This document shows, in pieces, positions 1,227 to 61,145 of a stretch of DNA of 64,000 nucleotides. Each line of letters starts with the position of its first letter. The stretch's first letter is position 1. Origin of the DNA: Flavivirga jejuensis. GTDB lineage: Bacteria; Bacteroidota; Bacteroidia; Flavobacteriales; Flavobacteriaceae. Both the position numbers and the translations under genes were made by a program. The notes under the pieces were generated by a model. The model saw nothing but the letters and a program-made list of their open reading frames with translations, searched no databases and was not told the DNA's origin. Location: positions 372,001 to 436,000 of the forward strand of contig NZ_JAUOEL010000004.1 of assembly GCF_030540765.1 (NCBI RefSeq), in the 5' to 3' direction.

Positions 1227-2437
1227 AGCTTAACATGTTTAAATGTTTTTTCAATTTTAGCGACTTCTATCATCATATTATAAGAATCACTGGGAATCTC
1301 ATTAGGGTTTAGTTTGAAGGTAGTAAAACCTTCAAAAGACTCTTTTAAAATCATATCAATTTTAGTATCGTCTTTGTAAATATGTAGTTTTATTTGTAGA
1401 CCATCTGGAATCATTTGATCCATAAAACTTTGTAAGGGACCTACGGTGATGGTTCTGTTATTATTAGAGAAAACCACATCGTAGCCTTTAATAATTTGTC
1501 TAAAATTAATAGTAATAATATCACTCTCTGCCATACCTTCTATATAAGCCTTAATCTTCCAGATATCCTCGTAATCCGGATGGACTGTTTTAGCCATTGC
1601 AATGCCATTAATAGTAGGTGCCGAAGTTCTAAGAATGTTTTTATCCCTGTTGGTAATAAAGAAATCTACAAGCGTACCATCGCTAACAATATTGCCGTTT
1701 TTATCACGAATAATAGAGCTTAGAAGTGTTGTGATTTGATTACCATCAGCATAATTGTGATTTTGTTTAAAGGATATATTAAAATTAGTGGGAATGGCCG
1801 GTTGTACATCTATAACAAATTCTTTAGAGTTTTTTCCTAAAGTTTCAGAACTTACAAGCATCCGTCCGGTTTTAGTTTCAGAATATAAGTTTTTATAGGC
1901 AATTAAATTATGCATACGCACCATGTTACGATATTCTGAACTCAAAAACTGATGTTTAACTTCTACCTCGGTACTGTCTTTTAGAGCATTTCCATAAATA
2001 TCGGTAGGGATAACCACAAGCATAGTATAGTCCAATCCACCAGCCTCGATACTTGGAGGCCCTATATAGGTTTCCATAGTGTTGGCGACTTGTTTCGGAT
2101 TAATATAAAATTTACCCGATAACGTATTATCATTTGCTAATAATTTCCAATTAATCAGTCCGCTTCTGTTAGCAATATTTTCTGGAATTTTATAGTTGAG
2201 TGTCTTGTTTTCAATACTTGGTTCAATTAAAATTGTACCATAACTATTAGAACAATATAATATAGGTTGCGAGTTATTACTTGTGGAAAATTGTAAATTA
2301 ATACCAAGTCCAGCCTCAAACTGCGTTTTAGTAGTTAACAGTTTAATAGCTATTTCCTCATCAGATGATTGACCTATCAATAAAATAGATGATGAAAACA
2401 TGAAAGCAATAACCAGTAAGTATGTTGTTTTACGCAT
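1223..2437 (-). CDS. Exported protein with invasin-like Ig domains
   Basis: The 404-residue product begins with a signal peptide ending near residue 22 (SSILLIGQ). The rest looks all-beta. The stretch at about residues 230-265 (ADGNQITTLLSSIIRDKNG) fits the start of a Big_1/invasin-like Ig module, and a similar module precedes it near residues 130-165 (IPTDIYGNALKDSTEVEV). No catalytic motif is visible. It lies two bases after the GT-C-like gene and overlaps the GH5-like gene by ATGA, so the three are translationally coupled. A structural or glycan-contact role in the periplasm or on the surface is inferred only from these domains and neighbours. Confidence 0.6.
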   Translation of the reverse strand: MRKTTYLLVIAFMFSSSILLIGQSSDEEIAIKLLTTKTQFEAGLGINLQFSTSNNSQPILYCSNSYGTILIEPSIENKTLNYKIPENIANRSGLINWKLLANDNTLSGKFYINPKQVANTMETYIGPPSIEAGGLDYTMLVVIPTDIYGNALKDSTEVEVKHQFLSSEYRNMVRMHNLIAYKNLYSETKTGRMLVSSETLGKNSKEFVIDVQPAIPTNFNISFKQNHNYADGNQITTLLSSIIRDKNGNIVSDGTLVDFFITNRDKNILRTSAPTINGIAMAKTVHPDYEDIWKIKAYIEGMAESDIITINFRQIIKGYDVVFSNNNRTITVGPLQSFMDQMIPDGLQIKLHIYKDDTKIDMILKESFEGFTTFKLNPNEIPSDSYNMMIEVAKIEKTFKHVKL

Positions 2438-2439
2438 TA

Positions 2440-5400
2440 TTATTTTGGGTTTCCTATATAGGTGTTAACTTCAATTTTTATATAACTATAATTAGGGTGA
2501 GATACGGGTTGTAAAACCGATTTGGTTTGATTAAAAATTCTGTTTGGAACTATTTTATCTGAAATAGCCTCATTAGGCAAACCGTTAACAAAACAATTGG
2601 TCATATCGTCACTTATAGATGTTAAACTATCATTTTCAAGTAGCCTATACTCAAAGTATAGTTTTCTTTGCTGTCTAATACCTTCAGCAAGGTATTGATG
2701 GTCTACCCAGATTTTTTCTGCATTTGCATTATAATAGGAAACAATAAGTTGTGGTATGGTTACTTCTTGCAATCCGGAATTAAACAAAGTACCACTAACA
2801 ACCCCCGAAGAGATTTTTAAATCACTTAAAGAAGTTCTTTTATACAAATCTGTTTTTGCGATATTACCAGCAATTTGTAAGTTGAATTTTGTGGGTTGTT
2901 CTTCAAATTCTACCGGGGTAAACTCATCGGGATTAAAGGTTTTGGGTATAGAATCCTTGGTTTTAGACCATGCGATGCCTTCAAAATTAATTCTAAATGC
3001 AGTGACTTCCTTAGGCACTATTTTATGCTTTACCTGATGCTTGGCATTATAGGTAGCTAACTCCTTATTATCATCATTGTAAAGTGTTCCTTTAAGTACA
3101 ACATCGGCAGGAATATTGTCTATGTTTTGAATATCTCCAATAATGGAATAACTATTTCCATGCTTCACCAACTTTGCCGAAAGTATTTCTAAAACAGGTT
3201 GTTTTAATACATCTTCGTGGTGGGTCTGTTCTGTGGTAATACGTCGACGTCCCTGATTAAAATATTCTGTAACATTACCTGAATATAATTGGTCTGGAGG
3301 TAAATCTGTGGTTACATCATCGGGTAATAAATACCACTTTCCTTTTTTCTTTACAAGAGATTTATAAGCGTATGTACTCATTCTTTCCAAAGGTGTAATC
3401 CATTCCATTTCTATTTTCATATTGGCCAGGCTATCTGTCTCCTTTATCATGGTGGTTTTAATGCCATCCATTTTGGCGTAAGAACTCAACAGACCATCGG
3501 TAACCGAAACCTGTAGCATGTATTGAGCAATGCTTATATCACTATCCGGATCAATTAAACTATGGGCTTGTTCGAATCTTTTAAAATCCAACGCATCGTA
3601 ATAGGCCAAAACGGCATTTTCAGGAGAGTGATGCGATTCGTTTTTCATATAGAAAAGGTAAATTCCATAAAAAATGCAGATGGCTATAAAAAAAGACCAG
3701 ACGTGTGTAAACGTTAAAAGCCATTTAGGAAATTTGGTATAATTATTTGTGAAATTCATGTATGCTGGCACAATCTTTTCCCTTGTTTTTAAAAGCCTAA
3801 CCCATAGCATTTGAATGTTAAGTATAAAGGCAAAAAGAACGGTTGTTAGTGGCATCATACCCCAAAGTATTTTTAACCAAAGGGGGACATCTTCTTTGGG
3901 TAAAATAGATGGAGCAGGGGGGACATTGAGTTTTTCCCAAACCATAATACCATTCTCTAATTGTTGTAAACGTTGCCAACCACAGAAATATAAAATAGGG
4001 TCGTAAAATTTATCGTTAGAAAAGATATATTTTAAATGATATTTTTCGGGAGTAGTTAAAAATTGCTGTAGCGATCCGATGCCTTCCAGCCCCCTGAATT
4101 TTGAGTTTTCTAAACGTTCAATAGGACGTGTGGTTAGCTCTGGAAGTCGTCTGGCAGAATGGTAGTTACCATCTACAGACATGGCTTTGGTTTGTGCCGA
4201 TAGCCAGGCCATCTGGTCACCAAAACCTAAGGTCATGTACCGCCAGTGATCGTGCTGATCCTGATTGAGAAAGTTAACAATAGGAAGCATCTTAATCTTT
4301 TGCGGTTGTGAAGGCCTAAAATACCCCAGACTCATTGTAAAAATGGTCATAAATAAAAGTAAACCGGCTAGAACACCCCCAATAATTCTATGATATACAG
4401 ACCCGAGCCAGTTTTGAATAAGGTCTTTTAAATCACCTTCTACAAAACGATATGCAAACTCGCCAAATATAGGCAAAGACATAATAGATGCCCAAAGAGT
4501 AAATCGGTCTAATGTTAAAATATTAAAAGCCGTTTCACCCAAAACCTTTAAAGGTATAGGTGTAGTACCACCAGTTCCTAAAACAGTACACACGGTGATA
4601 GACAAACCAAAAAAACAATAACGCTTACTATAATACCTATAGAAAATATATGGTATAAGAATGAGCATAATGCCCCAGGGAATTAAAAAAAACACCAAGC
4701 CAGAAGAGGTAACTTCAAGAAAGTTATCTCTGGAACCGTGAGGGATTGGAACTTGTGTAATGGGGTTTTTCTTTGAGTTAATCCAATAGGGGAGAATACA
4801 CCCTACAATGATGACTAATGAAGAGAACCCGAAAACAACAATACGTTTGAAGAGTTTGAAAAAAGTTCTTATAAAAACCTTAATAGTAACATCTTTAGCC
4901 GAGCCCACCTGTTCGGTTGCAGTGTCCATAATCACCGTACCAATTAAAGGGAATATAAAGAATACCATTCCAAAAATAGGAGTTACATGGTGCGACGTAA
5001 CTGTAACCGATATTAACGATAAACATGTAAAGTAGTATCTGATTTTTCCGGTCTTTAACCATAAGTAAATTTCTGGAAGGGCATGCATTAGAACTGAAAC
5101 CCCAACAATACTAGGTAGTTGCCCAAATAAATGTAATGTTTCAACAAATGATGAAGAAAGTACCGCTAAGATGGCGGCATAACCGGCTGCAGTTCTGTTT
5201 GAAGTCATCAATAATGAAAACCGATAAACCCCTGTAACGAATAATAGAATAGCAATAAAAGCAACGGTAAATAGTCCGAATTTTAAACCGCCTACTAGAG
5301 ATAAAGCCCCGATGGCCTGATGTACCAATGGCGGGTAACTCATAACCGTAAAACCGGTATACCATTGATAATTCCAAGGCTCAAGCCAACTCGTAGCATA

Positions 5401-5529
5401 ATGATTGGCAAAGAACAAATGGATTAATGCATCATAAGTGCTTTCTATAGTAAAGAATATAGAAGTCCCATGAAATGCTAATCCTATAAGAATAGCAGCA
5501 ATTAAGTACTTGTTCGACTTTTCATGCAT
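2440..5529 (-). CDS. Large polytopic membrane protein with GT-C-like N-terminal half
   Basis: The product has 1029 residues. The first ~430 contain about a dozen hydrophobic helices with an acidic residue after the first helix (ESTYDALIH), the usual position of the catalytic Asp in GT-C glycosyltransferases. Two more helices lie near 575 and 630. The C-terminal third is soluble: an NTF2-like segment (NAVLAYYDALDFKRFEQAH, about 675-775) and two beta-rich modules that resemble FxLYD-type domains. Such proteins are usually annotated as 6-pyruvoyl-tetrahydropterin-synthase-related membrane proteins, a label with little functional content. It is the first gene of the leftward operon. A role in transfer of lipid-linked sugars is an inference. 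Confidence 0.6.
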   Translation of the reverse strand: MHEKSNKYLIAAILIGLAFHGTSIFFTIESTYDALIHLFFANHYATSWLEPWNYQWYTGFTVMSYPPLVHQAIGALSLVGGLKFGLFTVAFIAILLFVTGVYRFSLLMTSNRTAAGYAAILAVLSSSFVETLHLFGQLPSIVGVSVLMHALPEIYLWLKTGKIRYYFTCLSLISVTVTSHHVTPIFGMVFFIFPLIGTVIMDTATEQVGSAKDVTIKVFIRTFFKLFKRIVVFGFSSLVIIVGCILPYWINSKKNPITQVPIPHGSRDNFLEVTSSGLVFFLIPWGIMLILIPYIFYRYYSKRYCFFGLSITVCTVLGTGGTTPIPLKVLGETAFNILTLDRFTLWASIMSLPIFGEFAYRFVEGDLKDLIQNWLGSVYHRIIGGVLAGLLLFMTIFTMSLGYFRPSQPQKIKMLPIVNFLNQDQHDHWRYMTLGFGDQMAWLSAQTKAMSVDGNYHSARRLPELTTRPIERLENSKFRGLEGIGSLQQFLTTPEKYHLKYIFSNDKFYDPILYFCGWQRLQQLENGIMVWEKLNVPPAPSILPKEDVPLWLKILWGMMPLTTVLFAFILNIQMLWVRLLKTREKIVPAYMNFTNNYTKFPKWLLTFTHVWSFFIAICIFYGIYLFYMKNESHHSPENAVLAYYDALDFKRFEQAHSLIDPDSDISIAQYMLQVSVTDGLLSSYAKMDGIKTTMIKETDSLANMKIEMEWITPLERMSTYAYKSLVKKKGKWYLLPDDVTTDLPPDQLYSGNVTEYFNQGRRRITTEQTHHEDVLKQPVLEILSAKLVKHGNSYSIIGDIQNIDNIPADVVLKGTLYNDDNKELATYNAKHQVKHKIVPKEVTAFRINFEGIAWSKTKDSIPKTFNPDEFTPVEFEEQPTKFNLQIAGNIAKTDLYKRTSLSDLKISSGVVSGTLFNSGLQEVTIPQLIVSYYNANAEKIWVDHQYLAEGIRQQRKLYFEYRLLENDSLTSISDDMTNCFVNGLPNEAISDKIVPNRIFNQTKSVLQPVSHPNYSYIKIEVNTYIGNPK

Positions 5530-5701
5530 ATAACGTAGGTTATTTTTTATGTTTTAAATATATAACAAAGTTTTGTATAGACGAATAGTATTTTTAAAAA
5601 GCAATAATTCATTCATCTACAGAAGTGCTCCTGTCACCGAATTTCAACAAAAATTGCTGTTTATTACAACTACTTTTATATAAGACTTTAAACAGGTTTT
5701 T

Positions 5702-6165
5702 TATGAAAAAGGAATTATTATACCATGCTATAACGAAGAAAAGAGATTGAATGTGAACGCTTTTGTTAAATTTATACAATCACATAGTATGCAAGGAAAA
5801 TTATAAGTATGACGATAAACTTTATTATTAGAAAGATTTTATCAATGAATTTTAAAGACACATAGTGTGGTGCAAAGATTTTTCATAAAGATGTTATTGA
5901 CGTCTCTTTTAGTAAAAAAAATGTAACGAAATGGATCTTTGATGTAGAGATCTTTAAAAGAATGACAACCTTTTATGGAATTAAAAAGGCTAAGAATTTA
6001 ATTTGTGAAAAACCATTAAAACGTTGGATACATGCCGATGGTTCTAAACTTTCAATGAAGGATTCCATGAAAATTATTGGTCAATTAGCTCAAATAGCCT
6101 GGGTTTATAGAAGTAATAAGGGAAGCGGAAAATTTCAATTAGAATTAGATCGTATAACGGTTTAA
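5702..6165 (+). pseudogene. Broken GT2 (dolichyl-phosphate-type) glycosyltransferase
   Basis: Two pieces of one family lie in different frames. From 5702 the frame reads YEKGIIIPCYNEEKRLN, the start of a GT2 domain, and stops at 5806. From 5866 another frame reads CGAKIFHKDVIDVS, then WIFDVEIFKRM and KRWIHADGSKLSMKDS, which matches the C-terminal half of DPM1-like GT2 enzymes, ending at 6165. The middle, with the DxD metal site, is absent or unrecognisable. An internal ATG at 5962 leaves a 67-codon frame that should not be called as a gene. The remnant sits between the polysaccharide operon and a second GT2-like gene. Confidence 0.8.
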
Positions 6166-6203
6166 GTTACTGTATCAACTACTCTCAACAGAAAATTAAT
6201 CAG

Positions 6204-6668
6204 ATGAAAATTGGAATTATAATACTATTTTATAACAATGCTATAGCTATAGATAAAAACTTATTTAAAGGGGTTTCTAATCTTTCCGATGTTCATTTGT
6301 GTCTTGTAAATAATGGAAGCAAAGATGAAACTTTAGAAAAATTACAAGAATTAAAAGAAACGTCTGGATTAAAAAGTACCATAATAGATATTAAACATAA
6401 TAAAGGTAAAATGGCGGCTATTAAAGCAGGGGCAAGGTACCTTTTTAACCATAACGATTTAAAACATATAGGCTATATTAATGTTGGTAAAATGAAAGAG
6501 GTTATGTCTTTATTTGAATTATTAAATGAAACACAGCATCATAAAGAATTAATTATTCAGCATAACTTGAATGTTATTAAAAAGCATTTGGTACAAAAGC
6601 CTCTTTTAAAAAATATATTCTCGATAAAAGACTATTTGAGGTATTTGAATATTAAGTTGGAATACTGA
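6204..6668 (+). CDS. Short GT2-like glycosyltransferase protein
   Basis: The 154-residue protein opens with a Rossmann-like GT2 start (MKIGIIILFYNNAIAI), followed by LCLVNNGSKDETLEKLQ and NKGKMAAIKAGARYLF, which align well with the nucleotide-binding half of GT2 enzymes. The DxD site and the acceptor half are missing; family members usually exceed 220 residues. It may be a truncated, inactive relative or a specialised short form. It begins 38 bases after the GT2 remnant, so both may derive from one decaying glycosyltransferase locus. No partner can be named. Confidence 0.55.
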   Translation: MKIGIIILFYNNAIAIDKNLFKGVSNLSDVHLCLVNNGSKDETLEKLQELKETSGLKSTIIDIKHNKGKMAAIKAGARYLFNHNDLKHIGYINVGKMKEVMSLFELLNETQHHKELIIQHNLNVIKKHLVQKPLLKNIFSIKDYLRYLNIKLEY

Positions 6669-6716
6669 GAAATAAATGGTCATTAGCAATAAATTTTTAA
6701 TAATATTGTGAAATAG

Positions 6717-7232
6717 ATGAAAACTGTTTTTTTAACGCTTATATGGTTTATTTGCTTTTTTTCCTTTTCTCAACACTATGAGAATGGAAGTATTGATTTT
6801 GGTGTGGGCGCCGTAATTAGTGTTGGCTTGCAGGAAGAAGTAGGTTTTGGTGTTAGACTTCAGTATCAATCTTCAACTAACACACAGACTTATATAGCTG
6901 AGTATAATCGGTTTTTTGTAAAAGAGTTCGAAAATACAGAAGTTTATAATGAGTTTGGTATTACTTATAATGTGCGTTTAATGTATTGGGACGCATTTAG
7001 TATTACTGGGGGCGTTGGATATATTGGAAATGATTATAGAATTTTAAGTAGAGCCGAAGATACATCTTCATTGTTTTTCTCCACAGGTAATTTTAATCAT
7101 GCTGCAGCACTTAAATTTAGAGGGTTATGTCATATAAATCCGATACATGTATTTGTAGAATTTAATCTAAAGAGTTTTGGAAAACGATATGATACTGTTA
7201 TTTTTGGACTTACATATTCTCTGGGGATTTAA
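6717..7232 (+). CDS. Small outer-membrane beta-barrel-like protein
   Basis: The 171-residue product starts with a clear signal peptide (MKTVFLTLIWFICFFSFSQ). The mature part alternates polar and aromatic residues in amphipathic strands rich in Gly and Tyr (FGVGAVISVGLQEEVGFGVR; YNVRLMYWDAFSITGGVGYI) and ends in FGLTYSLGI, consistent with a small 8-strand barrel. No family can be named and no partner gene is obvious. A 28-base stretch of this gene (from 6910) recurs just after its stop codon. Confidence 0.55.
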   Translation: MKTVFLTLIWFICFFSFSQHYENGSIDFGVGAVISVGLQEEVGFGVRLQYQSSTNTQTYIAEYNRFFVKEFENTEVYNEFGITYNVRLMYWDAFSITGGVGYIGNDYRILSRAEDTSSLFFSTGNFNHAAALKFRGLCHINPIHVFVEFNLKSFGKRYDTVIFGLTYSLGI

Positions 7233-7648
7233 GCTTAGGTTTTTTGTAAAAGAGTTCAAAATACTATAAGAGGGAGTGTAATTGGTTTGTTTCCAGATTC
7301 TAAAAAAAATTGACACAAATTTCACGAATTCACACGAATACAGTTTTACCTGTTTATTTTTGTATGTCACGAAGCAAACTTTTCAGGCAGCCAAAGTTGA
7401 AAGATCATAGGTTTAGTTAATCTATAGAGTTTTTCGACGCTTTGATGTTAGTGTTAAGTTGAAAGTTTGAAAATCTTAGGTTTTTATCAAAAAAAGAAAC
7501 CCTTTCCGCTTGCAGGTTCTGTCTCTTTTCATTTAAATATCTTTAATGTGTTTGTTTTATTATGTTTATTTTTGTTGTAAGATAATTCTTAAAATTAAAA
7601 TAATTAAAACTAATATCTAAATTAGATTTTTTAGAATATTTATTGTTT
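7233..7648. repeat. Intergenic region with a gene-fragment repeat and flavobacterial short repeats
   Basis: No gene is visible. Bases 7238-7267 repeat bases 6910-6937 of the preceding barrel gene (core GTTTTTTGTAAAAGAGTTC) with small changes, which marks an old partial duplication. Around 7308-7340 lies a CACGAATTCACACGAATA-type short repeat common between flavobacterial genes. The remainder is AT-rich and probably carries the promoter of the next gene, but no clean TAnnTTTG element was found. Confidence 0.6.
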
Positions 7649-8908
7649 ATGGAAGAAAAAAGAACACTTTTTTTTAAAAATTATAATTGTTGGGTTAAAG
7701 ATAATATTTTTAAATTCTCAAATCTATCAAACCAAAGGTTAGTACCCGAATTTATTAATTCAATCAAGAGATTGCATTTCAAATTCAAACACACAAAAAT
7801 TATTTTAGATTTTTCTGAAGTAGACAAAGTATATCCATATCCAGCAGCAGCAATAGTTGGCTATATATATTATTTTGAAAATGAATTGGGTATTGAGTTT
7901 GAATATTTAAATATGCCAACATATTTAAAAAAAATAAGTTTTTCAGCTCCCAAAATAGTTACAGAAAAAAATGTTGGAAGACATAAGGATTGTTTAGATA
8001 GAATATGGATTTTTAATAATTCTGATGAAGTGCATTTATTAGTTAATGGTATACTAACAGATATAAGGAAAGCTTTAGAATGTGAACCTGGTGTAATAGA
8101 TGCTTGTACTTGGGGGTTGAATGAAATAATGGATAATGTAATACAACATTCCGAAGCTAAATGTGGGTTTATTATGGGGGTTATTCATAAAAAAACGAAG
8201 AATATTAATATTTCAATTTTTGACTATGGAATTGGAATATATACTTCATTAAAATATTCTGATAACGTATATAATCCTAAAAGTGCAGCAGATGCAATTT
8301 CTCTTGCTGTTCAAGAAGGCGTTACTAGAGATAAATCCGTTGGGCAAGGAAACGGAATGTGGGGTCTATATAATATTGTTAACTTAAACTCTGGGCATAT
8401 GAGTGTTATATCTGGAAAAGGTGGTTTGAGTTTAAATAGAGGAGTAATGAAGACTTATGAACAAATTAGAATGTTAAGCTTAAAACAACAAGCAACAACT
8501 GTTAATTTTCATTTAAATTTAAATAAGGACATATCAATAAAGGATGCTTTAGGTGGCACTGAAATGGTAGATATGTATATTGAAAATATGGAAGATGATT
8601 ATGATAGAGTTGTTTTTAAAATTTTTGAAGCTGCATCTGGAACAGGAACTCGTCAAAGTGGTTTAAAGATTAAAAATGAAGTCATAAATTTATATAAAAA
8701 AGCAAAAAAATCAATTATTATAGATTTTGATAATGTTGGAGTAATTTCTTCTTCTTTTGCAGATGAATTTATTGGAAAATTAGTTGTGGAACTTGGTTTT
8801 TATCAGTTTCAAAAGATTTTCACATTATCAAATATGAATGCTACTATTCAGACTATAGTTCAAAGATCGTTAAGTCAAAGAATGGCAGAATCTCTTAAAG
8901 TTAGTTAA
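7649..8908 (+). CDS. GHKL ATPase flanked by STAS-like domains (DUF4325 at C-terminus)
   Basis: I place the start at ATG 7649, giving 419 residues; a TTG two codons earlier is in frame but less likely. Three parts are visible: an N-terminal STAS-like segment (TKIILDFSEVDKVYPYPAAA), a central GHKL ATPase with N-box (LNEIMDNVIQHSEAK), G1 (FDYGIGI) and G2 (GQGNGMWGLYNIV), and a C-terminal DUF4325 segment (SIIIDFDNVGVISSSFADEF). There is no His phosphoacceptor or receiver domain, so it is not a normal sensor kinase. The layout recalls anti-sigma kinase and anti-anti-sigma modules joined in one chain. The gene stands alone. Substrate and partner are unknown. Confidence 0.75.
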   Translation: MEEKRTLFFKNYNCWVKDNIFKFSNLSNQRLVPEFINSIKRLHFKFKHTKIILDFSEVDKVYPYPAAAIVGYIYYFENELGIEFEYLNMPTYLKKISFSAPKIVTEKNVGRHKDCLDRIWIFNNSDEVHLLVNGILTDIRKALECEPGVIDACTWGLNEIMDNVIQHSEAKCGFIMGVIHKKTKNINISIFDYGIGIYTSLKYSDNVYNPKSAADAISLAVQEGVTRDKSVGQGNGMWGLYNIVNLNSGHMSVISGKGGLSLNRGVMKTYEQIRMLSLKQQATTVNFHLNLNKDISIKDALGGTEMVDMYIENMEDDYDRVVFKIFEAASGTGTRQSGLKIKNEVINLYKKAKKSIIIDFDNVGVISSSFADEFIGKLVVELGFYQFQKIFTLSNMNATIQTIVQRSLSQRMAESLKVS

Positions 8909-9087: not shown

Positions 9088-9229
9088 ACTAATTTTAACT
9101 TTTTCAAATGACCTCAGAAAACTTTGGTTAAAACAATAGGAGAGGAGCGAGCATATTTCAAGGGTTAGTTACTTTTTCCAAATTTCATTATGTTTTTACA
9201 ATTTATTTTTTGATGTAATAATGAAACCC

Positions 9230-10243
9230 TTACCCGCCAATAGTAATCATACTTCTGTTATTATTATGCAATTTAGGTTCCTGTAGTTTTTTTAAAGTAT
9301 CCATACCACCTCGAACTTTAAGCTTTGCTTGTACTGCTTTTTGAATGATTGGTTCGATAGATTTCCCTTCTCGAAGTGTGGTTAATAAATCAGATTCTGT
9401 TGAAGAAAACAAACAGTTTTTTAACTGTCCATTGGCTGTTAATCTAAGTCTGTTACAAGAATCGCAAAACGGATTCGTTACAGAACTAATAATAGCGAAA
9501 CTCCCTTTATAACCTTTTATTTTATAGTTTTTAGAAGTATCGTTTGGAGCATCTTGCAGGCGAATAATGTTTGCCTCTTCAAAAGCATCGTTCACATAGT
9601 TCATCACTTGGGCGTAAGAAACCATTTTACTCATATCCCATTTATTCCCATCAAAAGGCATGAATTCAATAAAGCGAATGGAAACAGGTAAATCTTTGGT
9701 GAAATTTATAAAATCTATAATTTCATCATCATTAAAATTTTTCATTAAAACGGCATTCACTTTTACTGTAAAGCCTTCTTTAACGAGTCGTAAAATATTG
9801 TTATAAACCTTTTTAAATTCATGTCTTCTGGTAATGTGCTTAAACTTACCTGCATCTAAGGAATCTAAACTCACATTAATTTTATTGACACCATTAGCTT
9901 TTAAAACGGGAATGAATTTATCAATAATAACAGCATTAGAGGTAATGGATAACTCTACTGGCAATGAAGCTAGTTTTTCTAAAATAACAGGAATATCTTT
10001 TCTAATTAGGGGTTCTCCACCTGTTAATCTGATTTTAGTAACCCCATGGTCTGCAAAAGTTTTGGCTATATCATAAATTTCTTCGTAAGTCATTAAATGA
10101 CTCTTGGGAGAGAGTTGTACACCTTCTTCTGGCATACAGTAGGTACATCGTAAATTACATCGTTCTGTTAATGAAATACGTAAATACGCATGGTCTCTAC
10201 CATGTAAATCTTGCAATATATTTTTATTCTGACTTCTATTCAT
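9230..10243 (-). CDS. moaA: GTP 3',8-cyclase (molybdenum cofactor step 1)
   Basis: The 337-residue radical SAM enzyme converts GTP to 3',8-cyclo-7,8-dihydro-GTP. The N-terminal cluster motif CNLRCTYC (CxxxCxxC form) binds the SAM [4Fe-4S] cluster, TGGEPL is the glycine-rich SAM site, and the C-terminal second cluster motif is CDSCNRLRLTANGQLKNC. A C-terminal GG (TIGG), needed for activity in this family, is present. It is the last gene of the leftward Moco cluster, separated by 68 bases from moaC-mogA, and supplies cofactor for NapA encoded divergently at 18.7 kb. Confidence 0.97.
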   Translation of the reverse strand: MNRSQNKNILQDLHGRDHAYLRISLTERCNLRCTYCMPEEGVQLSPKSHLMTYEEIYDIAKTFADHGVTKIRLTGGEPLIRKDIPVILEKLASLPVELSITSNAVIIDKFIPVLKANGVNKINVSLDSLDAGKFKHITRRHEFKKVYNNILRLVKEGFTVKVNAVLMKNFNDDEIIDFINFTKDLPVSIRFIEFMPFDGNKWDMSKMVSYAQVMNYVNDAFEEANIIRLQDAPNDTSKNYKIKGYKGSFAIISSVTNPFCDSCNRLRLTANGQLKNCLFSSTESDLLTTLREGKSIEPIIQKAVQAKLKVRGGMDTLKKLQEPKLHNNNRSMITIGG

Positions 10244-10311: not shown

Positions 10312-11223
10312 TTAATCGTGTCTTGCACCTTTTAATATTCTAAAAATATGTAGTACCGATGGAAATATAGCATCCATGGATTCTTTAGCTCCATTTGTTG
10401 AGCCTGGTAGTGCCAATACCAAGGTGTTATTCATAGTACCAGCAACGCTTCTGGATAACATCGAAAATGGCGTTCTATCTTGTCCGTAGTTGCGAATGGC
10501 TTCTTCAATTCCAGGAATTCTTCTGTCTAAAAGTGGCAAAAGCGCTTCCGGAGTGATATCTCTCACAGAAAGTCCAGTACCACCAGTATAGATAATTAAA
10601 TCAACACCTTGCTTCTGATAGCTTTTTGCTTTCTCCTGAATGATCTCTTTTTCGTCTGGAATAATAATGTAATCTTTAATTTTAACATCACTTTCCTCTA
10701 ATTTTTTTATGATGGCTTTTCCTGCTTTATCTTCTTTCTGTCCTGCTGAAATAGTATCGGAACATACTATCACTGCTGCTTTTAGGTCATTTCTGAAACG
10801 ATCTCTAAAATCAGATTTTCCGCCTTTTTTATTGAGTAATTTTATTGCGTGAATCTCAATGCCTTTATCTATAGGTTTTAGCATATCATACATGTTTAAA
10901 GCAACAACGCTGGCGCCGTGCATAGCTTCAACTTCAACACCCGTTTTGTAAATGGTTTTGACGGTGAATAAAACGGTAATTTCTAAATCATTGATTTCAT
11001 ATTCCACACCAGTAAATTCGATAGGTAAGGGGTGACAATCTGGTAAAATGTCTGGTGTGCGTTTTACACCCAATAACCCAGCTGCTTTGCTCATAGCAAA
11101 AACATTACCTTTTGGAACGGTATCGTTTTGAATGGCGATTATGGTTTCTGGTTTGCTAACTTTAACAATAGCTTGAGCTACTGCAGTTCTTAATGTGGTA
11201 CTTTTATGTGTGATATCGACCAT
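10312..11223 (-). CDS. moaCB: Bifunctional MoaC / MogA (MoaB) fusion
   Basis: Residues 1 to ~145 are MoaC, cyclic pyranopterin monophosphate synthase ([28 protein letters not shown], including catalytic His/Lys/Glu context). Residues ~148-303 are MogA/MoaB, the molybdopterin adenylyltransferase ([21 protein letters not shown]). Such fusions are known in Bacteroidetes and are usually named MoaCB. The protein therefore performs step 2 and the adenylation that precedes Mo insertion by MoeA. The C-terminal domain keeps the TGGTG motif. It lies downstream of an inserted S23 gene. Confidence 0.93.
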
Positions 11224-11248
11224 CTTTCGATTTATTATTTTCTATTGA

Positions 11249-11602
11249 TTATTTATTATTGTTGTTTGCCGTTTTTCTTGAAGCTATGAAGATTGCTGTT
11301 AATTCACTAGACTCTTTTAGCAAAAACTCAATCTTGTCTTTTTGAATAAGCTTTTCATCTAGAGCAAATTCCAGCCAGAAATTTGATTCGTCTACTTCTT
11401 CGATAACTATACTAATTTTTGCAACAAAACTGGGTTTTGATTGGGCAACACAGGTCGCTCTATAATTTGCAGCTACTGATGTTGAACATCTAATAAGTTG
11501 CATCTTGATATGATTAGCTAGGTAAGTCTTTGGGAAAAACTCTGTAATCTTAATGCAATTATGAGCAAAAATCTTAGTTCTTTTTTTTAATGCTTCCTTC
11601 AT
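11249..11602 (-). CDS. Four-helix-bundle S23/IVP-family protein, copy 1
   Basis: ATG at 11602 gives 117 residues. It shows the family pattern of S23 proteins first seen in 23S rRNA intervening sequences: CSTSVAANYRAT, then FVAKISIVIEEVDESNFWLEF. The protein is all-helical and binds nucleic acid weakly in studied relatives; its biological role is unclear. It sits inside the Moco cluster between moaE and moaCB, with no functional link to Moco. An 11-base inverted repeat (TATTGATTATT at 11243-11253 and its complement at 11603-11613) flanks it, but the sequence is AT-rich. Confidence 0.85.
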   Translation of the reverse strand: MKEALKKRTKIFAHNCIKITEFFPKTYLANHIKMQLIRCSTSVAANYRATCVAQSKPSFVAKISIVIEEVDESNFWLEFALDEKLIQKDKIEFLLKESSELTAIFIASRKTANNNNK

Positions 11603-11628
11603 AATAATCAATAATAATTAGTCAATAA

Positions 11629-12072
11629 TTAATGGTTAACTTTCCATTGATGTGATTCATCCTCAAAAATTTCCTTACCAAACACAGGAACATCCGCTTT
11701 TATGGCTTCAACAATAAATTCTAAAGCTTTAAAAACGACCTTTCTTCTTGGTGATGATACGAATACGAATAAGCATATTTCACCTGCTTTAACGGTTCCT
11801 AAACTGTGATAAATATGCATACATGTTAATTCAAATTTTTCGAATGCCGCTTCTCTTATCTCATGAAATTTGGCATTCGCCATATCCTCATAAGCAGTAT
11901 ATTCTATAGCTGAAACTGTTTTGTCGTCTATAACATCGGCTCGTACTTGTCCTAAAAAGATGTTATGAGCGCCAATGCTTGTTTTTGTTTGATGTTTTGC
12001 AATGGAATCTCCAATAAACTCTGAAGAAATTGCACCTTGTCTAAAAACGTTTTTTATTTTTTTATCTGCCAT
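11629..12072 (-). CDS. moaE: Molybdopterin synthase large subunit
   Basis: The 147-residue MoaE forms the (MoaD-MoaE)2 complex that inserts two sulfurs into cyclic pyranopterin monophosphate. Family motifs are visible: IEYTAYEDMA, HSLGTVKAGE, SSPRRKVVFKALEFIVEAIK and the C-terminal PVFGKEIFEDESHQWK with the catalytic lysines. Length is normal. Its ATG overlaps the stop of moeB by one base, which implies translational coupling. Confidence 0.96.
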   Translation of the reverse strand: MADKKIKNVFRQGAISSEFIGDSIAKHQTKTSIGAHNIFLGQVRADVIDDKTVSAIEYTAYEDMANAKFHEIREAAFEKFELTCMHIYHSLGTVKAGEICLFVFVSSPRRKVVFKALEFIVEAIKADVPVFGKEIFEDESHQWKVNH

Positions 12073-52341: not shown

Positions 52342-53877
52342 ATGCTTAAAAAAATTTTTGGAAGTGCTGTTTTTGGCGTGGAAGCCACAACGATCACAGT
52401 TGAGGTTAATGTGGATTCAGGAATAGGGTATCATCTTGTCGGACTCCCTGATAATGCTATTAAAGAGAGTAATTATCGCATAGCTGCGGCATTACAGAAT
52501 AACGGTTATAAAATTCCAGGAAAGAAAATAACCATTAATATGGCTCCTGCCGATTTACGAAAAGAGGGGAGTGCATACGACCTTACTTTGGCCATCGGAA
52601 TCCTAGCAGCCTCTAAGCAAATTATAGCTGAGGATTTAGAGCGTTATCTAATTATGGGAGAACTTTCGCTTGATGGAAGTTTACAACCCATAAAAGGCGC
52701 CTTACCAATTGCAGTGAAAGCAAAGGAAGAAGGTTTTAAGGGGTTTATTTTACCTAGTCAAAATGCTAAAGAAGCTGCCATAGTAGATGGGTTGGAAGTT
52801 TATGGTATTGATAGTATTAAGCAAGTCATTAATTATTTTGATAAGGGGGAACCTCTCGAGGAAACCATTATCAATACACGAGAAGAGTTTTATAAAAATT
52901 TGGAGTTTCCAGAATTTGATTTTTCTGATGTAAAAGGACAAGAAGGTATTAAACGCTGTATGGAAATTGCAGCAGCTGGAGGGCATAATATTATTTTAAT
53001 TGGTCCGCCAGGAGCAGGAAAAACCATGTTAGCAAAACGCTTGCCTAGTATTTTACCACCTATGACACTGTATGAAGCCTTGGAAACCACTAAAATACAT
53101 TCGGTGGTTGGTCGTGTAAAAGATACGGGATTGATGGCACAACGTCCGTTTAGAAGTCCGCATCATACCATCTCAAATGTTGCCCTCGTGGGAGGTGGCA
53201 GCTACCCGCAACCAGGGGAAATCTCATTGTCTCATAATGGTGTTTTGTTTTTAGATGAACTCCCAGAATTTAAGCGTGAAGTTCTGGAAGTTATGCGCCA
53301 GCCATTAGAAGATAGAGAAGTAACCATATCCAGAGCGAAGTTTACGGTAACCTATCCATCCTCGTTTATGTTGGTGGCGAGTATGAATCCGAGCCCAGGT
53401 GGTTATTTTAATGATCCTAACGCTCCTGTTACTTCCAGCCCTGCGGAAATGCAACGGTATTTGAGTAAGATCTCTGGGCCTTTATTGGATCGAATTGATA
53501 TTCATATTGAAGTGACTCCCGTGCCTTTTGATAAGTTATCTGACGATAGAAAAGGAGAAACTTCGGTAGATATTAGAAAACGGGTTACGAAGGCTAGAGA
53601 AATTCAAACCGATCGTTTTAAAGAGTCGGATGTGGTACATTATAATGCACAGATGAATACGAAGCAGATTCGGAAGTATTGTTTGTTGGATGATGCTTCT
53701 AAGCAATTATTAAAAACTGCCATGGAGCGTTTGAATCTTTCTGCTCGAGCCTATGATCGTATTTTGAAAGTTTCTAGGACTATTGCGGATTTAGAAGGGG
53801 TAGAGGAAGTCAATGGTTCGCATATTAGTGAAGCGATTCAGTATCGGAGTTTGGATCGTGAGGGGTGGTTGGGGTAA
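52342..53877 (+). CDS. comM: ComM/YifB family AAA+ helicase-like protein
   Basis: The 511-residue protein has the N-terminal ChlI domain (VNVDSGIGYHLVGLPDNAIKES), Walker A GPPGAGKTML, Walker B VLFLDELPEF, and a C-terminal Mg-chelatase lid ([22 protein letters not shown]). ComM moves branches during natural transformation. The 3' third (53400-53877) has a decayed second copy at 57156-57634, on the far side of the metallopeptidase gene. Confidence 0.93.
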   Translation: MLKKIFGSAVFGVEATTITVEVNVDSGIGYHLVGLPDNAIKESNYRIAAALQNNGYKIPGKKITINMAPADLRKEGSAYDLTLAIGILAASKQIIAEDLERYLIMGELSLDGSLQPIKGALPIAVKAKEEGFKGFILPSQNAKEAAIVDGLEVYGIDSIKQVINYFDKGEPLEETIINTREEFYKNLEFPEFDFSDVKGQEGIKRCMEIAAAGGHNIILIGPPGAGKTMLAKRLPSILPPMTLYEALETTKIHSVVGRVKDTGLMAQRPFRSPHHTISNVALVGGGSYPQPGEISLSHNGVLFLDELPEFKREVLEVMRQPLEDREVTISRAKFTVTYPSSFMLVASMNPSPGGYFNDPNAPVTSSPAEMQRYLSKISGPLLDRIDIHIEVTPVPFDKLSDDRKGETSVDIRKRVTKAREIQTDRFKESDVVHYNAQMNTKQIRKYCLLDDASKQLLKTAMERLNLSARAYDRILKVSRTIADLEGVEEVNGSHISEAIQYRSLDREGWLG

Positions 53878-57155: not shown

Positions 57156-57634
57156 GTTTTTATTTTAATGATCCTAACGCTCCTGTTACTTCCAGCCCTA
57201 CGGAAATGCAACGGTATTTGAGTAAGATTTCTGGGCCTTTATTAGATAGGATCGATATTCATATTGAAGTAACGCCTGTGCCTTTTGAAAGCTGTCGGAA
57301 GATTGAAAAGGAGAAACTTCGGTAGACATTAGAAAACGAGTTACGTAGGCTAGAGAGATTCAAAACCGATCGTTTTGAAGAGTCGGATGTGGTACATTAT
57401 AATGCGTAAATGAATACGAAGCAGATTCGGAAGTATTGCTTGTTGGATGATGCTTCTAAACAATTATTAAAAACGGCCATGGAGCATTTGAATCTTTCTG
57501 CTCGAGCCTATGATTGTATTTTGAAGGTTTCTAGGACTATTGCTGATTTAGAGGGCTTGGAAGATGTAAATGGTTCGCATATTAGTGAAGCGATTCAGTA
57601 TAGGAGTTTGGATCGTGAGGGGGGGTTGGGGTGA
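57156..57634 (+). pseudogene. Decayed copy of the comM 3' third
   Basis: The segment aligns with 53400-53877 almost base for base (for example TAATGATCCTAACGCTCCTG), but has a frame change near 57292, stop codons at 57317 and 57409, and a GG insertion at the end. Only the last 75 codons stay open (57410-57634) and should not be called as a gene. The intact comM lies 3.7 kb upstream in the same direction. Confidence 0.92.
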
Positions 57635-58020
57635 TAAATTCCTGTGCAGGCAGGAATCTTTTAGTTTTATATGCACAGATGTAAATCTAAATTAAAATGA
57701 ATTAATTGTTTTTGCTTACTCTTGCCTCTACTAGTTTTGAAACTAGAGGTAGCGTGGGGCTCTTTTAAACACTTAAAATACAAAAAATGTCCTGTTTTTA
57801 AAGTAGCTTCCTTGTATTATTTTTTCTTAATCTTACCAGATACTAAGCACAACTTGGCGACATAATATACGTGAGTCTTAATAATGAAATTTAACTATTA
57901 TTAAACAATAGTATATCTATAAGTAAATTTAAAATAGTAATATATTCTTTATTATTCTAACCATAAATGAACAGTCAAAACCAAAAGATAATTTAGAACA
58001 AGCAATCACAAAAACTAAAA
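57635..58020. other. Gap ahead of the peptide unit
   Basis: 57638-57657 is an ATTCCTGTGCAGGCAGGAAT hairpin, a near copy of 13167-13186. The rest to 58020 is AT-rich and holds no gene that I can see. Confidence 0.6.
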
Positions 58021-58088
58021 TAAGGTTTTTCCTTGTTTTAAATAAGGGTTTTTCCTTCTTTAAAAGAGAGTTTTTTCTTCTGTTTTAA
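58021..58088 (+). repeat. Three tandem 22-base repeats before the peptide gene
   Basis: TAAGGTTTTTCCTTG (58021), TAAGGGTTTTTCCTTC (58043) and AGAGAGTTTTTTCTTC (58065) begin 22 bases apart. The first two contain AAGG-TTTTT-CCTT, a short dyad. They end about 79 bases before the peptide start codon at 58167, so they could be binding sites on one face of the helix, two turns apart. Confidence 0.55.
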
Positions 58089-58166
58089 TATGTGCTTATC
58101 TAATAATTTTGAATCATTGTATAACCAGCCTTGATTTTATTAAATCTTGGCACAACTTAAATATTT

Positions 58167-58397
58167 ATGGAAAATAAACAAAGGTTTAGAAAGATTTCAT
58201 TAAATGATTTTCAATCAATGAAAGACACGCCAAGTGTTGAGAAATTGGCAGATTCATTGAATGGAGGTAGTTTTATGAAATGTCATGTAGAATTTTATGA
58301 ATCAACAGGGTTATGGATTCCTGAATTAGTCCCAGTTTTCAAAAAACTGGATGCTCAATTAATGACAAGAGATCTTCCTGCTGAGTTACAAGTCTAA
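58167..58397 (+). CDS. Candidate RiPP-type precursor peptide
   Basis: The 76-residue product starts with a polar leader-like part (KISLNDFQSMKDTPSVEKL, about 9-27) and a double glycine at residues 33-34 (ADSLNGGS), after which the sequence changes to aromatic, His, Cys and Pro-containing residues (FMKCHVEFYESTGLWIPELV). This is the leader-core layout of ribosomal peptides, although the core lacks the Ser/Thr/Cys density of lanthipeptides. It precedes an aldo-keto reductase by 67 bases and a HExxH-like gene. A small folded protein is the main alternative. Confidence 0.45.
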   Translation: MENKQRFRKISLNDFQSMKDTPSVEKLADSLNGGSFMKCHVEFYESTGLWIPELVPVFKKLDAQLMTRDLPAELQV

Positions 58398-58464
58398 TCT
58401 AGTATAGCTATCTATTCTATGCAATAGGTAGCTATGTTTTTTCAATATTAAATTTATAGTAATT

Positions 58465-59736
58465 ATGCTAAGTCTTGAAGAATTGAATAAAATTGGATTT
58501 GGAGCTTATAGAATCTCAAAATTTTCTAATGAGCATAATCAAGCACTCCAATATGCAATTGATAATGGATGCAACCTTATTGATACATCATCAAATTATA
58601 CTAATGGAGAATCCGAAATGCTTATAGGAGATGTTATTTCGGAAAGGCGAAAACATTTATTCGTAATAACAAAAGCTGGTTATATTAGATCTAACAATGA
58701 GGATATAGATCAGGTGTCTAAAAGACTAAAAATTCCTAAAGAAGAAATTTTTCAAACATCAGATAATAGCTTTCATTCCTTTGGAGCTGAGTTTTTAGAG
58801 AATGAAATTAAAACATCATTAAAAAGATTGAAAACGTCTTATATAGATGGTTTTCTATTACATAATCCTGAATATTACTTTAACCAAAATAAAATATCGA
58901 TTTCTGATAATAGATTTTATGAGTTAATAAGAAAGGTATTTGTTTTCTTAGAAACACAAGTTAAGAAAGGTAAAATTAGATATTACGGAATTAGCTCTAA
59001 TATGTTTCAGTTACCGAATAATGACAATGGAATAAATTTGTTAAAGATTATAAAAATTGCTCAGAATATTTCAGAAACCAATCATTTTAAATTCATCCAA
59101 TTTCCTTTAAATCTTGCTGAATATGAACCGTCTAAACCTAATTATGAAGGTAAAAGTTTAATAGAGTTTGCCAAATTAAATGGCTTAATAACAATTTCTA
59201 ATAGAACGTTGACAGCTGTAACAGAAAAAGGAACTGTTAGATTTGCTAATTACACAAAAGACATATCAAACTTAGATGAAGAATTTGATTTCAAGGTGAT
59301 CACTAACTTTTTAAATCAGATAAAAGAGCAACTTTTAGCTATAGATGTTCATGATGATATTCTCAGTTTTGTACCAATTCAAGTAGTTAAAACTAGTTGG
59401 AACATTTTTCCAAATACAGATGTTGTTGATGGTGTTTTTAACAAGCATCTTATTCCATTTGTAATGAGAATATTTGACAATGATTTGCCCCCTAAAATAT
59501 TACAAAGCCTGTCAAACCTCAAGGCCATATTAAGAGGTTACGCAAAAAGAAATATGATGACCTTAACGAATTCTTATTTAAATACCTTAAAAAAGAATGG
59601 TACAATTAAGGATTTTAACAATATGTCTTTATCAGAAATAGCTTGTAAATTTTGTATAGATTCTGGTGTTGATCATGTATTAGTTGGAATGCGGGAAAAA
59701 CAATATGTAGAATCTTTAAAATCTTTAATAAAATGA
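58465..59736 (+). CDS. Aldo/keto reductase with C-terminal insertion
   Basis: The 423-residue protein keeps the AKR tetrad: D40 (LIDTSSNYTNGESE), Y45, K70 (FVITKAGY) and H133 (FLLHNPE). The barrel continues with RYYGISSN and ends in VLVGMREKQYVE. About 100 residues (roughly 255-365) are inserted before the last barrel part, unlike standard AKRs of ~320. It probably reduces a carbonyl with NADPH. The stop overlaps the start of the next gene by four bases, so the two are coupled. A peptide substrate is an inference from the neighbours. Confidence 0.85.
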   Translation: MLSLEELNKIGFGAYRISKFSNEHNQALQYAIDNGCNLIDTSSNYTNGESEMLIGDVISERRKHLFVITKAGYIRSNNEDIDQVSKRLKIPKEEIFQTSDNSFHSFGAEFLENEIKTSLKRLKTSYIDGFLLHNPEYYFNQNKISISDNRFYELIRKVFVFLETQVKKGKIRYYGISSNMFQLPNNDNGINLLKIIKIAQNISETNHFKFIQFPLNLAEYEPSKPNYEGKSLIEFAKLNGLITISNRTLTAVTEKGTVRFANYTKDISNLDEEFDFKVITNFLNQIKEQLLAIDVHDDILSFVPIQVVKTSWNIFPNTDVVDGVFNKHLIPFVMRIFDNDLPPKILQSLSNLKAILRGYAKRNMMTLTNSYLNTLKKNGTIKDFNNMSLSEIACKFCIDSGVDHVLVGMREKQYVESLKSLIK

Positions 59737-60920
59737 TAGATCAAAAAATAACACCTCCAGCTTTTTTGTCTAAAGGTTTTGAAGAGGGACAAAAAAAATT
59801 AGCAGAAAAAATCAAGTTTCTTATTTACAAAACAGCACCTGACCTTTTTAGTTATTTGGATTTTAACAATGACGATACATTCCTTAATCCTTATTTGTTT
59901 ACCTATTTTGTTTGCGAAGAAAAATCTTTGACACTTGAACAAATACTAATTAAAAATTTAGTAGCATTTAGCAACGAAAATGAGATTGAGGTTTATGTTA
60001 ACAAAGAAGGAGTCATTGAATTACCTGGTATAGGATATCTCCAAACAGATGTAACAAATACAAAACTAACTCTAAGAACAGAATCTTTTCCCGATTCATT
60101 TGATTTGACTCAAAGGGGGAAAGAAATTAAATATAAATTTGAACCATCAATGTTTGTTTTAAACAGAGAAATTGAATTATCATTTTACAATAACCCATAT
60201 CTCAACTATTTTTTAACAGGCAGTTCAAATGCTGACAGTAAATTTGAAATCCCTTTTTTTTCAAAAACATATATAAAGGAAATTGAAAACTCATTTATAT
60301 TAATCAAACAACATCTTCCGAAATACTATTCTAAATTAGTTAAAGCCGTTAAAAGAATAGTTATCTATAGGCATGATATGCCGTTTTCATTTGCATCACT
60401 TGGCTGTCATGGCACAATTTTTTTGAATGTTCCTAAAAATTCTAATGAAATATTTTTCTCTGAGGATTTAATACATCAAGGAGGGCATGTCATTTTTAAT
60501 GCAATTTCTGAAACTAAAAATTTTATGAATATTTCAAAGGAAACCCTAATGGTTAACCTTAATAATAATGATAGAGATACGAGAAATGTTTTTGAGGTCT
60601 TACATGGTATTTATACGGAAACATGGATGAATTTATTTTGGAATTCTTGTAACGAAAAAAATGATTTCACACAAGAGATGACATTTGAAATGCTAGGGCG
60701 CTTTACTTATATTTTAACCAGATTTGGTTATGATTTAAAAGGTTTATCATTCGAAAATATTTTTTCAAGTATGGGGGAGGAGCTTTTTAAATGGTTTATG
60801 GATGTTTATGAGAGTATAGTAAATCATAACTATAAACTTATTTCAAAATATGATATTTCAAAACAACCGTATTGTTTTGACTTGGAATTGTTTAAAAAAG
60901 ATAACCCAAGGTATATCTAA
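59733..60920 (+). CDS. HExxH-like peptide-modification protein (HQxxH variant)
   Basis: The 395-residue protein has SFASLGCHGTIFLN then EDLIHQGGHVIFNA (H248-Q-G-G-H252) and later VLHGIYTETWMN (H291). This order matches the HExxH-type putative peptide beta-hydroxylases, where a Ser-rich strand, an LxHExxH helix and an LHG segment recur, with Gln in place of Glu. The family is thought to use Fe and 2-oxoglutarate on ribosomal peptides. The assignment is by motif only. It is coupled to the aldo-keto reductase, and a terminator follows. Confidence 0.5.
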   Translation: MIDQKITPPAFLSKGFEEGQKKLAEKIKFLIYKTAPDLFSYLDFNNDDTFLNPYLFTYFVCEEKSLTLEQILIKNLVAFSNENEIEVYVNKEGVIELPGIGYLQTDVTNTKLTLRTESFPDSFDLTQRGKEIKYKFEPSMFVLNREIELSFYNNPYLNYFLTGSSNADSKFEIPFFSKTYIKEIENSFILIKQHLPKYYSKLVKAVKRIVIYRHDMPFSFASLGCHGTIFLNVPKNSNEIFFSEDLIHQGGHVIFNAISETKNFMNISKETLMVNLNNNDRDTRNVFEVLHGIYTETWMNLFWNSCNEKNDFTQEMTFEMLGRFTYILTRFGYDLKGLSFENIFSSMGEELFKWFMDVYESIVNHNYKLISKYDISKQPYCFDLELFKKDNPRYI

Positions 60921-60956
60921 TAAGGCACCTTAAATAGATTTACAACTTATTTTCTT

Positions 60957-60996
60957 AGCCCTGTTATTGGTTTACAATAATAGGGCTTGGCTTTTT
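60957..60996 (+). terminator. Rho-independent terminator after the peptide unit
   Basis: AGCCCTGTTATTG pairs with CAATAATAGGGCT (one G-T pair) around GTTTA, followed by TGGCTTTTT. It ends the three-gene unit from 58167. Confidence 0.8.
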
Positions 60997-61145
60997 ACAT
61001 AATAATTCTTCCTTAGTTTTTCTGTTTATAAATTGTTTTGATGTACTTGATTAGGTGTAAGGTTCTCTATACTGTTCTTAAAATTAAAAAAAATGTATTT
61101 AAATCAGAGGAATAATATAAATTAGAATTTGTTAAAAAACAGTTT

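Follow-up and report, generated by a model that had tools for sequence, protein, structure and literature searches.

A reduced member of a widespread Cys-His peptide family beside a divergent HExxH-oxygenase-fold protein in Flavivirga jejuensis

A three-gene unit of Flavivirga jejuensis, encoding a precursor-like peptide, an aldo/keto reductase (AKR) and a protein with an HQxxH motif, here called HX, is a reduced member of a widespread family of Cys-His peptides found around a divergent protein of the HExxH oxygenase fold. The unit lies in a 64,000-nt stretch (assembly GCF_030540765.1, contig NZ_JAUOEL010000004.1, positions 372,001–436,000), called the window, whose coordinates are used below. 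The best explanation of the whole, which we hold to be moderately probable, is that the unit makes a ribosomally synthesized and post-translationally modified peptide (RiPP), with HX and the AKR modifying its Cys-His pair. An earlier note on this DNA had read the unit as a peptide-modification system. None of the conditions that the note named as refuting it came true. Comparison supports and extends that reading, through a Gly-Gly-x4-Cys-His (GG-x4-CH) signature in 30 of 42 HX loci, an AKR in ten other loci and the fold of the HX model. The genes and their main features are as follows.

58167..58397, + strand: precursor-like peptide, 76 aa, with an ISLNDF leader motif, GG, CH and then the TGLWIPELVPVF block
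58263..58268, + strand: double glycine codons, residues 33–34
58281..58286, + strand: Cys39-His40 codons, proposed modification site, from conservation near HX
58305..58361, + strand: TG-x-WIPEL-x2-VF-x3-D-x2-L block, residues 47–65, common to the L095 and L112 peptides
58465..59736, + strand: AKR, 423 aa, Pfam Aldo_ket_red
59254..59634, + strand: additional helical segment of the AKR (residues ~264–390), from the secondary structure of the model; solved AKRs align over ~220–280 of the 423 residues
59733..60920, + strand: HX, HQxxH protein, 395 aa, predicted to fold like an alpha-ketoglutarate HExxH peptide oxygenase
60474..60488, + strand: HQGGH codons, residues 248–252; His248 and His252 are candidate metal ligands
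60603..60605, + strand: codon of His291, putative third metal ligand (retained in 43 of 46 sequences)

The Cys-His peptides

Small open reading frames (ORFs) within 7 kb of HX carry the GG-x4-CH pattern in those 30 loci, with 46 such ORFs in all; the window was left out of the 42, and L040, where the HX ORF was not recovered, could not be examined. Before HX and peptides were counted, L021 (identical to the locus of L007) and the duplicates or fragments L041, L042 and L050–L062 were removed. Among all 400 dipeptides at the same spacing after GG, the runner-up reached 3 of the 42 loci, and CH at spacings of 0–3 and 5–8 was found in 0 to 3 loci each. When spacings of 3–6 were permitted, a GG-then-CH peptide was present in 32 loci. 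Of the remaining ten, seven (L010, L016, L018, L024, L031, L032 and L045) have CH at a different spacing or place in a small ORF, which is weaker evidence, and no convincing peptide was found in three: L020 and L028, which are short contigs, and L040.

The window peptide follows the family pattern, with ISLNDF, GG, four residues and CH (GGSFMKCH), and the leader-like N-terminus and double glycine that the earlier note had described in this 76-residue ORF are all there. A motif resembling [LI]SLxx[FL]K recurs in many leaders of HX-linked peptides. Cys-His is invariant in an alignment of 20 peptides (A5), whose members were picked for possession of the motif, and in an alignment (A8) of the three peptides from the window, L095 and L112. 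Among GG peptides of the same genome that stand beside C39 transporters without HX, a small control, none of four has CH by the pattern, nor does a fifth. The presence of Cys-His thus seems tied to HX and not to the transporter, which makes it the natural candidate for the modified site.

A leader peptide gene beside genes for modifying enzymes, the arrangement of a RiPP gene cluster, is found across genomes. The earlier note had proposed looking for recurrence elsewhere, and the pair of HX and peptide proved to be widespread. It had also raised the possibility that the peptide is a fragment of a known folded domain, and no such domain was found: there is no NCBIfam match for the window peptide or for any of the five peptides tested altogether, and a single Pfam match of the window peptide, below the cut-off, was judged to be due to chance.

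HX, a divergent protein of the HExxH oxygenase fold

What kind of protein is HX? Its HQGGH motif occupies residues 248–252 of the 395, in the HExxH-type layout that the earlier note had noticed. Two structures match the HX model far better than any others, SjiH and the alpha-ketoglutarate HExxH oxygenase domain of ChlB, and do so over most of the chain. The model has the fold of the ChlB domain, with conserved candidate metal ligands. Membership of the NCBIfam family TIGR04267 is supported neither by score, which is 23.9 bits (E 3.4e-5; 25.9 bits in the genome search) against a curated cut-off of 40, nor by the motif, which is HQGGH. Across 46 HX sequences, the window included, His248 is retained in 43, His252 in 44 and His291 in 43, and the second residue of the motif is Gln in 38 and Glu in six. 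These counts are the fair ones; that both His248 and His252 are fully invariant in alignment A3 is partly due to selection, as A3 omits five of the 46 (the second copies in L027, L032 and L045, the contig-cut L028 and the broken L043).

HX is rare across the genomes searched. None of 59 relatives beside the genome itself, 11 congeners among them, carries it. A single-sequence search across the phylum found it in 4 of 395 genomes (own included). In the profile searches at most four candidates were scored per genome, so misses are possible; within the family HX turned up in 11 of 397 genomes (own included, two with weak fragments alone), and across the phylum it was found in full length in the same four, with a 52-residue fragment in addition. 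Scanning genome contigs with the profile yielded 33 HX loci, 30 of them Bacteroidota by title and three Proteobacteria (L008, L012, L017).

Second HX copies that have lost at least one motif histidine stand beside intact ones in L032 (11895–13028), L045 (2701–3801) and L027 (9965–11137), and are possible partner pseudoenzymes. In L094 (8383–9505, genome G544) the HX gene is split in two, close to a CH peptide gene that looks intact.

The aldo/keto reductase

The AKR scores 99.3 bits against Pfam Aldo_ket_red (PF00248, cut-off 24) and has the AKR barrel. An Asp-Tyr-Lys-His tetrad is typical of the aldo/keto reductase superfamily, and the corresponding Asp40, Tyr45, Lys70 and His133 are invariant in all 11 HX-linked AKRs. 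The insertion reported in the earlier note is borne out by the model as a helical extra segment at residues about 264–390. This segment is not particular to peptide clusters, being present in longer AKRs without HX as well. Such long AKRs (ORFs of about 470–580 codons) were found in 26 of 395 genomes of the phylum (L079, L081, L084 and 23 more), again with at most four candidates scored per genome, and none of these genomes has HX by profile. The three that were compared are 31–33% identical to the window AKR (P0002) over nearly the whole chain and have the extra segment in the same region, but are longer.

An AKR is present in 11 of 43 HX loci including the window. What had seemed an unusual partner for an HExxH-type protein is thus recurrent, and the AKR-bearing loci all fall within one part of the HX tree.

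Methyltransferases, transporters and other neighbors

A methyltransferase like the second one of L007 is encoded in 11 of the 42 loci (window not counted), and in all 11 the best Pfam family, above its cut-off, is CARME (PF07942). CARME proteins occur in ten of the 11 AKR loci, the window being the exception; the eleventh CARME locus, L010, is too short to judge for an AKR. Because CARME proteins accompany AKR clusters and CARNMT1 is reported to methylate protein histidines (PMC12275196), the histidine would, by analogy, be the likelier target in CARME-bearing clusters. The carnosine/protein histidine N-methyltransferase family (CARME PF07942, CARNMT1) thus matches the loci of 11 relatives and not the window unit. 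A search for CARME in the window's own genome gave no match, but control genomes gave none either, so that this result cannot establish absence.

Of 42 loci, 35 have a C39 transporter homologue near HX, and the number rises to 37 once seven of the short loci are widened. Within the window the C39 query matches only two genes for ATP-binding cassette (ABC) ATPases, which are 32% and 27% alike and lie at a distance of over 11 kb, in agreement with the earlier remark that no transporter is nearby. Other contigs of the same genome encode C39 transporters, two full-length homologues at 53% identity to the cluster type and one at 34%, and these could act in trans. Related units usually have a transporter, and the window unit is a reduced form.

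Other neighbors recur beside HX, including tetratricopeptide repeat-like proteins (by eye), a protein of 169 aa that has no Pfam family and membrane proteins resembling Rce1 (L007 at 3209–4532 and 11020–11814, L034 at 9221–9961 and many other HX loci); perhaps these serve immunity or regulation. A LanB lantibiotic dehydratase lies within 10 kb of HX in L006, L016 and L027, with LanC-like genes in two loci; the LanB of L006 was checked against Pfam.

A subtype on a plasmid and a viral contig

When 72,556 plasmid records were searched, the window peptide gave one match (E 9e-4, limit 1) and the window HX also gave one (E 3e-6, limit 0.01), to the same record, a plasmid of Pseudorhodobacter turbinis (L095), which is also the only record matched by two further HX queries. 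The HX ORF of L095 starts right past the stop codon of the peptide; if a TTG start is assumed it has 285 aa and lacks approximately the first 110 residues. The local alignment of the window and L095 peptides has a score of 96, while the best of 2000 shuffles reached 45. A scan of viral contigs with the HX profile gave one locus, IMG/VR IMGVR_UViG_2924165586_000010 (L112), where the ORF directly upstream of HX (2000–2209) encodes a CHV-x5-TG-x-WIPEL peptide and HX is full length, with 23% identity to the window HX (E 2e-26, single comparison). The three peptides have CHV-x5-TG-x-WIPEL-x2-VF-x3-D-x2-L in common. Searched as a profile, the three peptides gave no new match in 138 other genomes of the class, and on viral contigs the profile recovered only the contig of L112.

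By eye, portal- and protease-like, phage-like ORFs lie near the peptide-HX pair of L095 (4441–8594), where no C39 transporter was seen among the listed ORFs; that of L112 has phage-like surroundings with ParB- and transposase-like ORFs (2000–8787).

That the block past the core is conserved suggests that the peptide has a conserved partner or that the product is not exported. It is conceivable, if quite unlikely, that these peptides form a mobile intracellular subtype in which the invariant Cys-His pair, oxidized or cross-linked by HX (in the window together with the AKR), would serve as a built-in redox or metal-binding cofactor and not as an exported antibiotic, while the C-terminal block would bind a partner protein.

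Proposed mechanism and alternatives

How might the unit work? A ribosomal peptide would be recognized via its N-terminal leader with the ISLNDF motif. HX, as a divergent Fe(II)/alpha-ketoglutarate oxygenase with a candidate metal site formed by HQxxH and probably His291, would oxidize the Cys-His pair four residues past GG, with the beta-carbon of the histidine as the likeliest position, and the AKR would then shift the oxidation level of the product by carbonyl reduction or alcohol oxidation. In the ten AKR-bearing relatives the histidine would probably be N-methylated too, by the CARME protein. In most relatives the product would be cut after GG and exported by the C39 transporter; in the window genome export would need a C39 transporter encoded elsewhere, unless the peptide remains inside. 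Conservation, co-occurrence and fold are what the comparisons show; the metal, the cosubstrate, the reaction and its site, the order of steps and the transport are inferred.

Alternatively, HX could act on the cysteine or the backbone, giving an aldehyde or thio-adduct from Cys, a Cys-His link or a PflC-like oxidative backbone cleavage, with the AKR reducing the resulting aldehyde or alpha-keto group. The cysteine is conserved as well as the histidine, and an AKR is most sensible if a carbonyl forms; on the other hand, the CARME proteins of AKR clusters favor the histidine, and a carbonyl product is not general, as 32 of 43 HX loci have no visible AKR. This scheme appears rather unlikely. Since its motif has Gln where the catalytic Glu would be, HX might also be no oxygenase at all, but a binding protein, a chaperone or an inactive zincin, the CH peptide an unmodified metal-binding or signaling peptide and the AKR a bystander. 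The far better fold matches to SjiH and the ChlB oxygenase domain, the retention of the candidate ligands in 43–44 of 46 sequences and the confinement of the AKR to one part of the HX tree all argue against this, and we consider it very unlikely.

Several observations weigh against a RiPP whose Cys-His pair is modified by HX and the AKR. HX does not reach the TIGR04267 cut-off, and its motif is without the Glu of HExxH. The role proposed for the AKR is drawn from its association with HX. No AKR is visible in 32 of 43 HX loci, some of them short contigs; a search with the window AKR found none beside L095, and none was seen by eye beside L112. The branch of the window HX is long (1.8), which makes its position among the AKR loci uncertain. 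The window unit has neither CARME protein nor transporter. Finally, the peptides most closely related to that of the window, those of L095 and L112, carry no double glycine, which is why cleavage at that site in the window peptide is rated only as likely.

Relation to known systems

HX resembles the alpha-ketoglutarate HExxH peptide hydroxylases (the ChlB HExxH domain, BpmH, PflC/PosC and PesO; TIGR04267/IPR026337) in the fold of its model, its His-x3-His site and the leader peptide alongside. Unlike these, it mostly has HQxxH, scores below the cut-off and is accompanied by a CH peptide family; its partners are AKR, CARME and C39 transporter, whereas the published systems have radical S-adenosylmethionine enzymes or multinuclear non-heme iron-dependent oxidative enzymes (MNIO). 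The window peptide shares a leader and GG with the double-glycine RiPPs exported by peptidase-containing ABC transporters, but its cluster has no C39 transporter, and the CH pair and, in the window subtype, the conserved block after it set it apart. No description of GG-x4-CH peptides, or of an AKR beside an HExxH enzyme, was found in the open-access literature by title or abstract opening; on that basis the CH-peptide family appears to be undescribed.

Layout and genomic setting of the unit

The start of HX lies within the end of the AKR gene, and because of this overlap of 4 bases (59733–59736), which the earlier note had pointed out, the two are probably translationally coupled. Three further elements flank or separate the genes.

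58016..58083, + strand: three imperfect direct repeats of 22–23 bases, upstream of the peptide gene
58403..58436, + strand: hairpin followed by T6, between the peptide and AKR genes, from folding against shuffles
60954..60997, + strand: terminator-like hairpin and T-run at the end of the unit

Of these, the repeats and the terminator had been reported before and were found again. The second and third repeats are 83% and 74% similar to the first, and the hairpin at 60954–60990 (−20.4 kcal/mol, z −4.8; none of 200 shuffles as good) is followed by C and T5. The hairpin at 58403–58436 (−15.4, z −3.4; one of 200 shuffles as good) is absent from the earlier note; it is a possible attenuator, which could leave peptide message in excess of enzyme message.

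Next to the unit, the 3' end of a comM/yifB-like gene is present in a second, decayed copy (57160–57642; related copy 52342–53877). Partial extra copies are present in the congeners G001, G004, G005 and G006, with a weak one in G002, and the genes after comM differ in each of four congeners inspected (L108–L111). One congener has the same M14-type peptidase gene, in 97% identical DNA, and no unit. The unit appears to be an insertion specific to this strain, at a variable position, and, judging by these comparisons, the comM/yifB-like site is an insertion hotspot.

Significance

A simple signature marks the family, GG-x4-Cys-His in a peptide encoded near an HQxxH protein with the oxygenase fold, and standard models miss it. 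Its natural Gln variants open the question of the role of Glu in HExxH oxygenases, and AKR and CARME proteins are added to the repertoire of such clusters. With two enzymes, the unit of the window is compact enough for direct experimental study.
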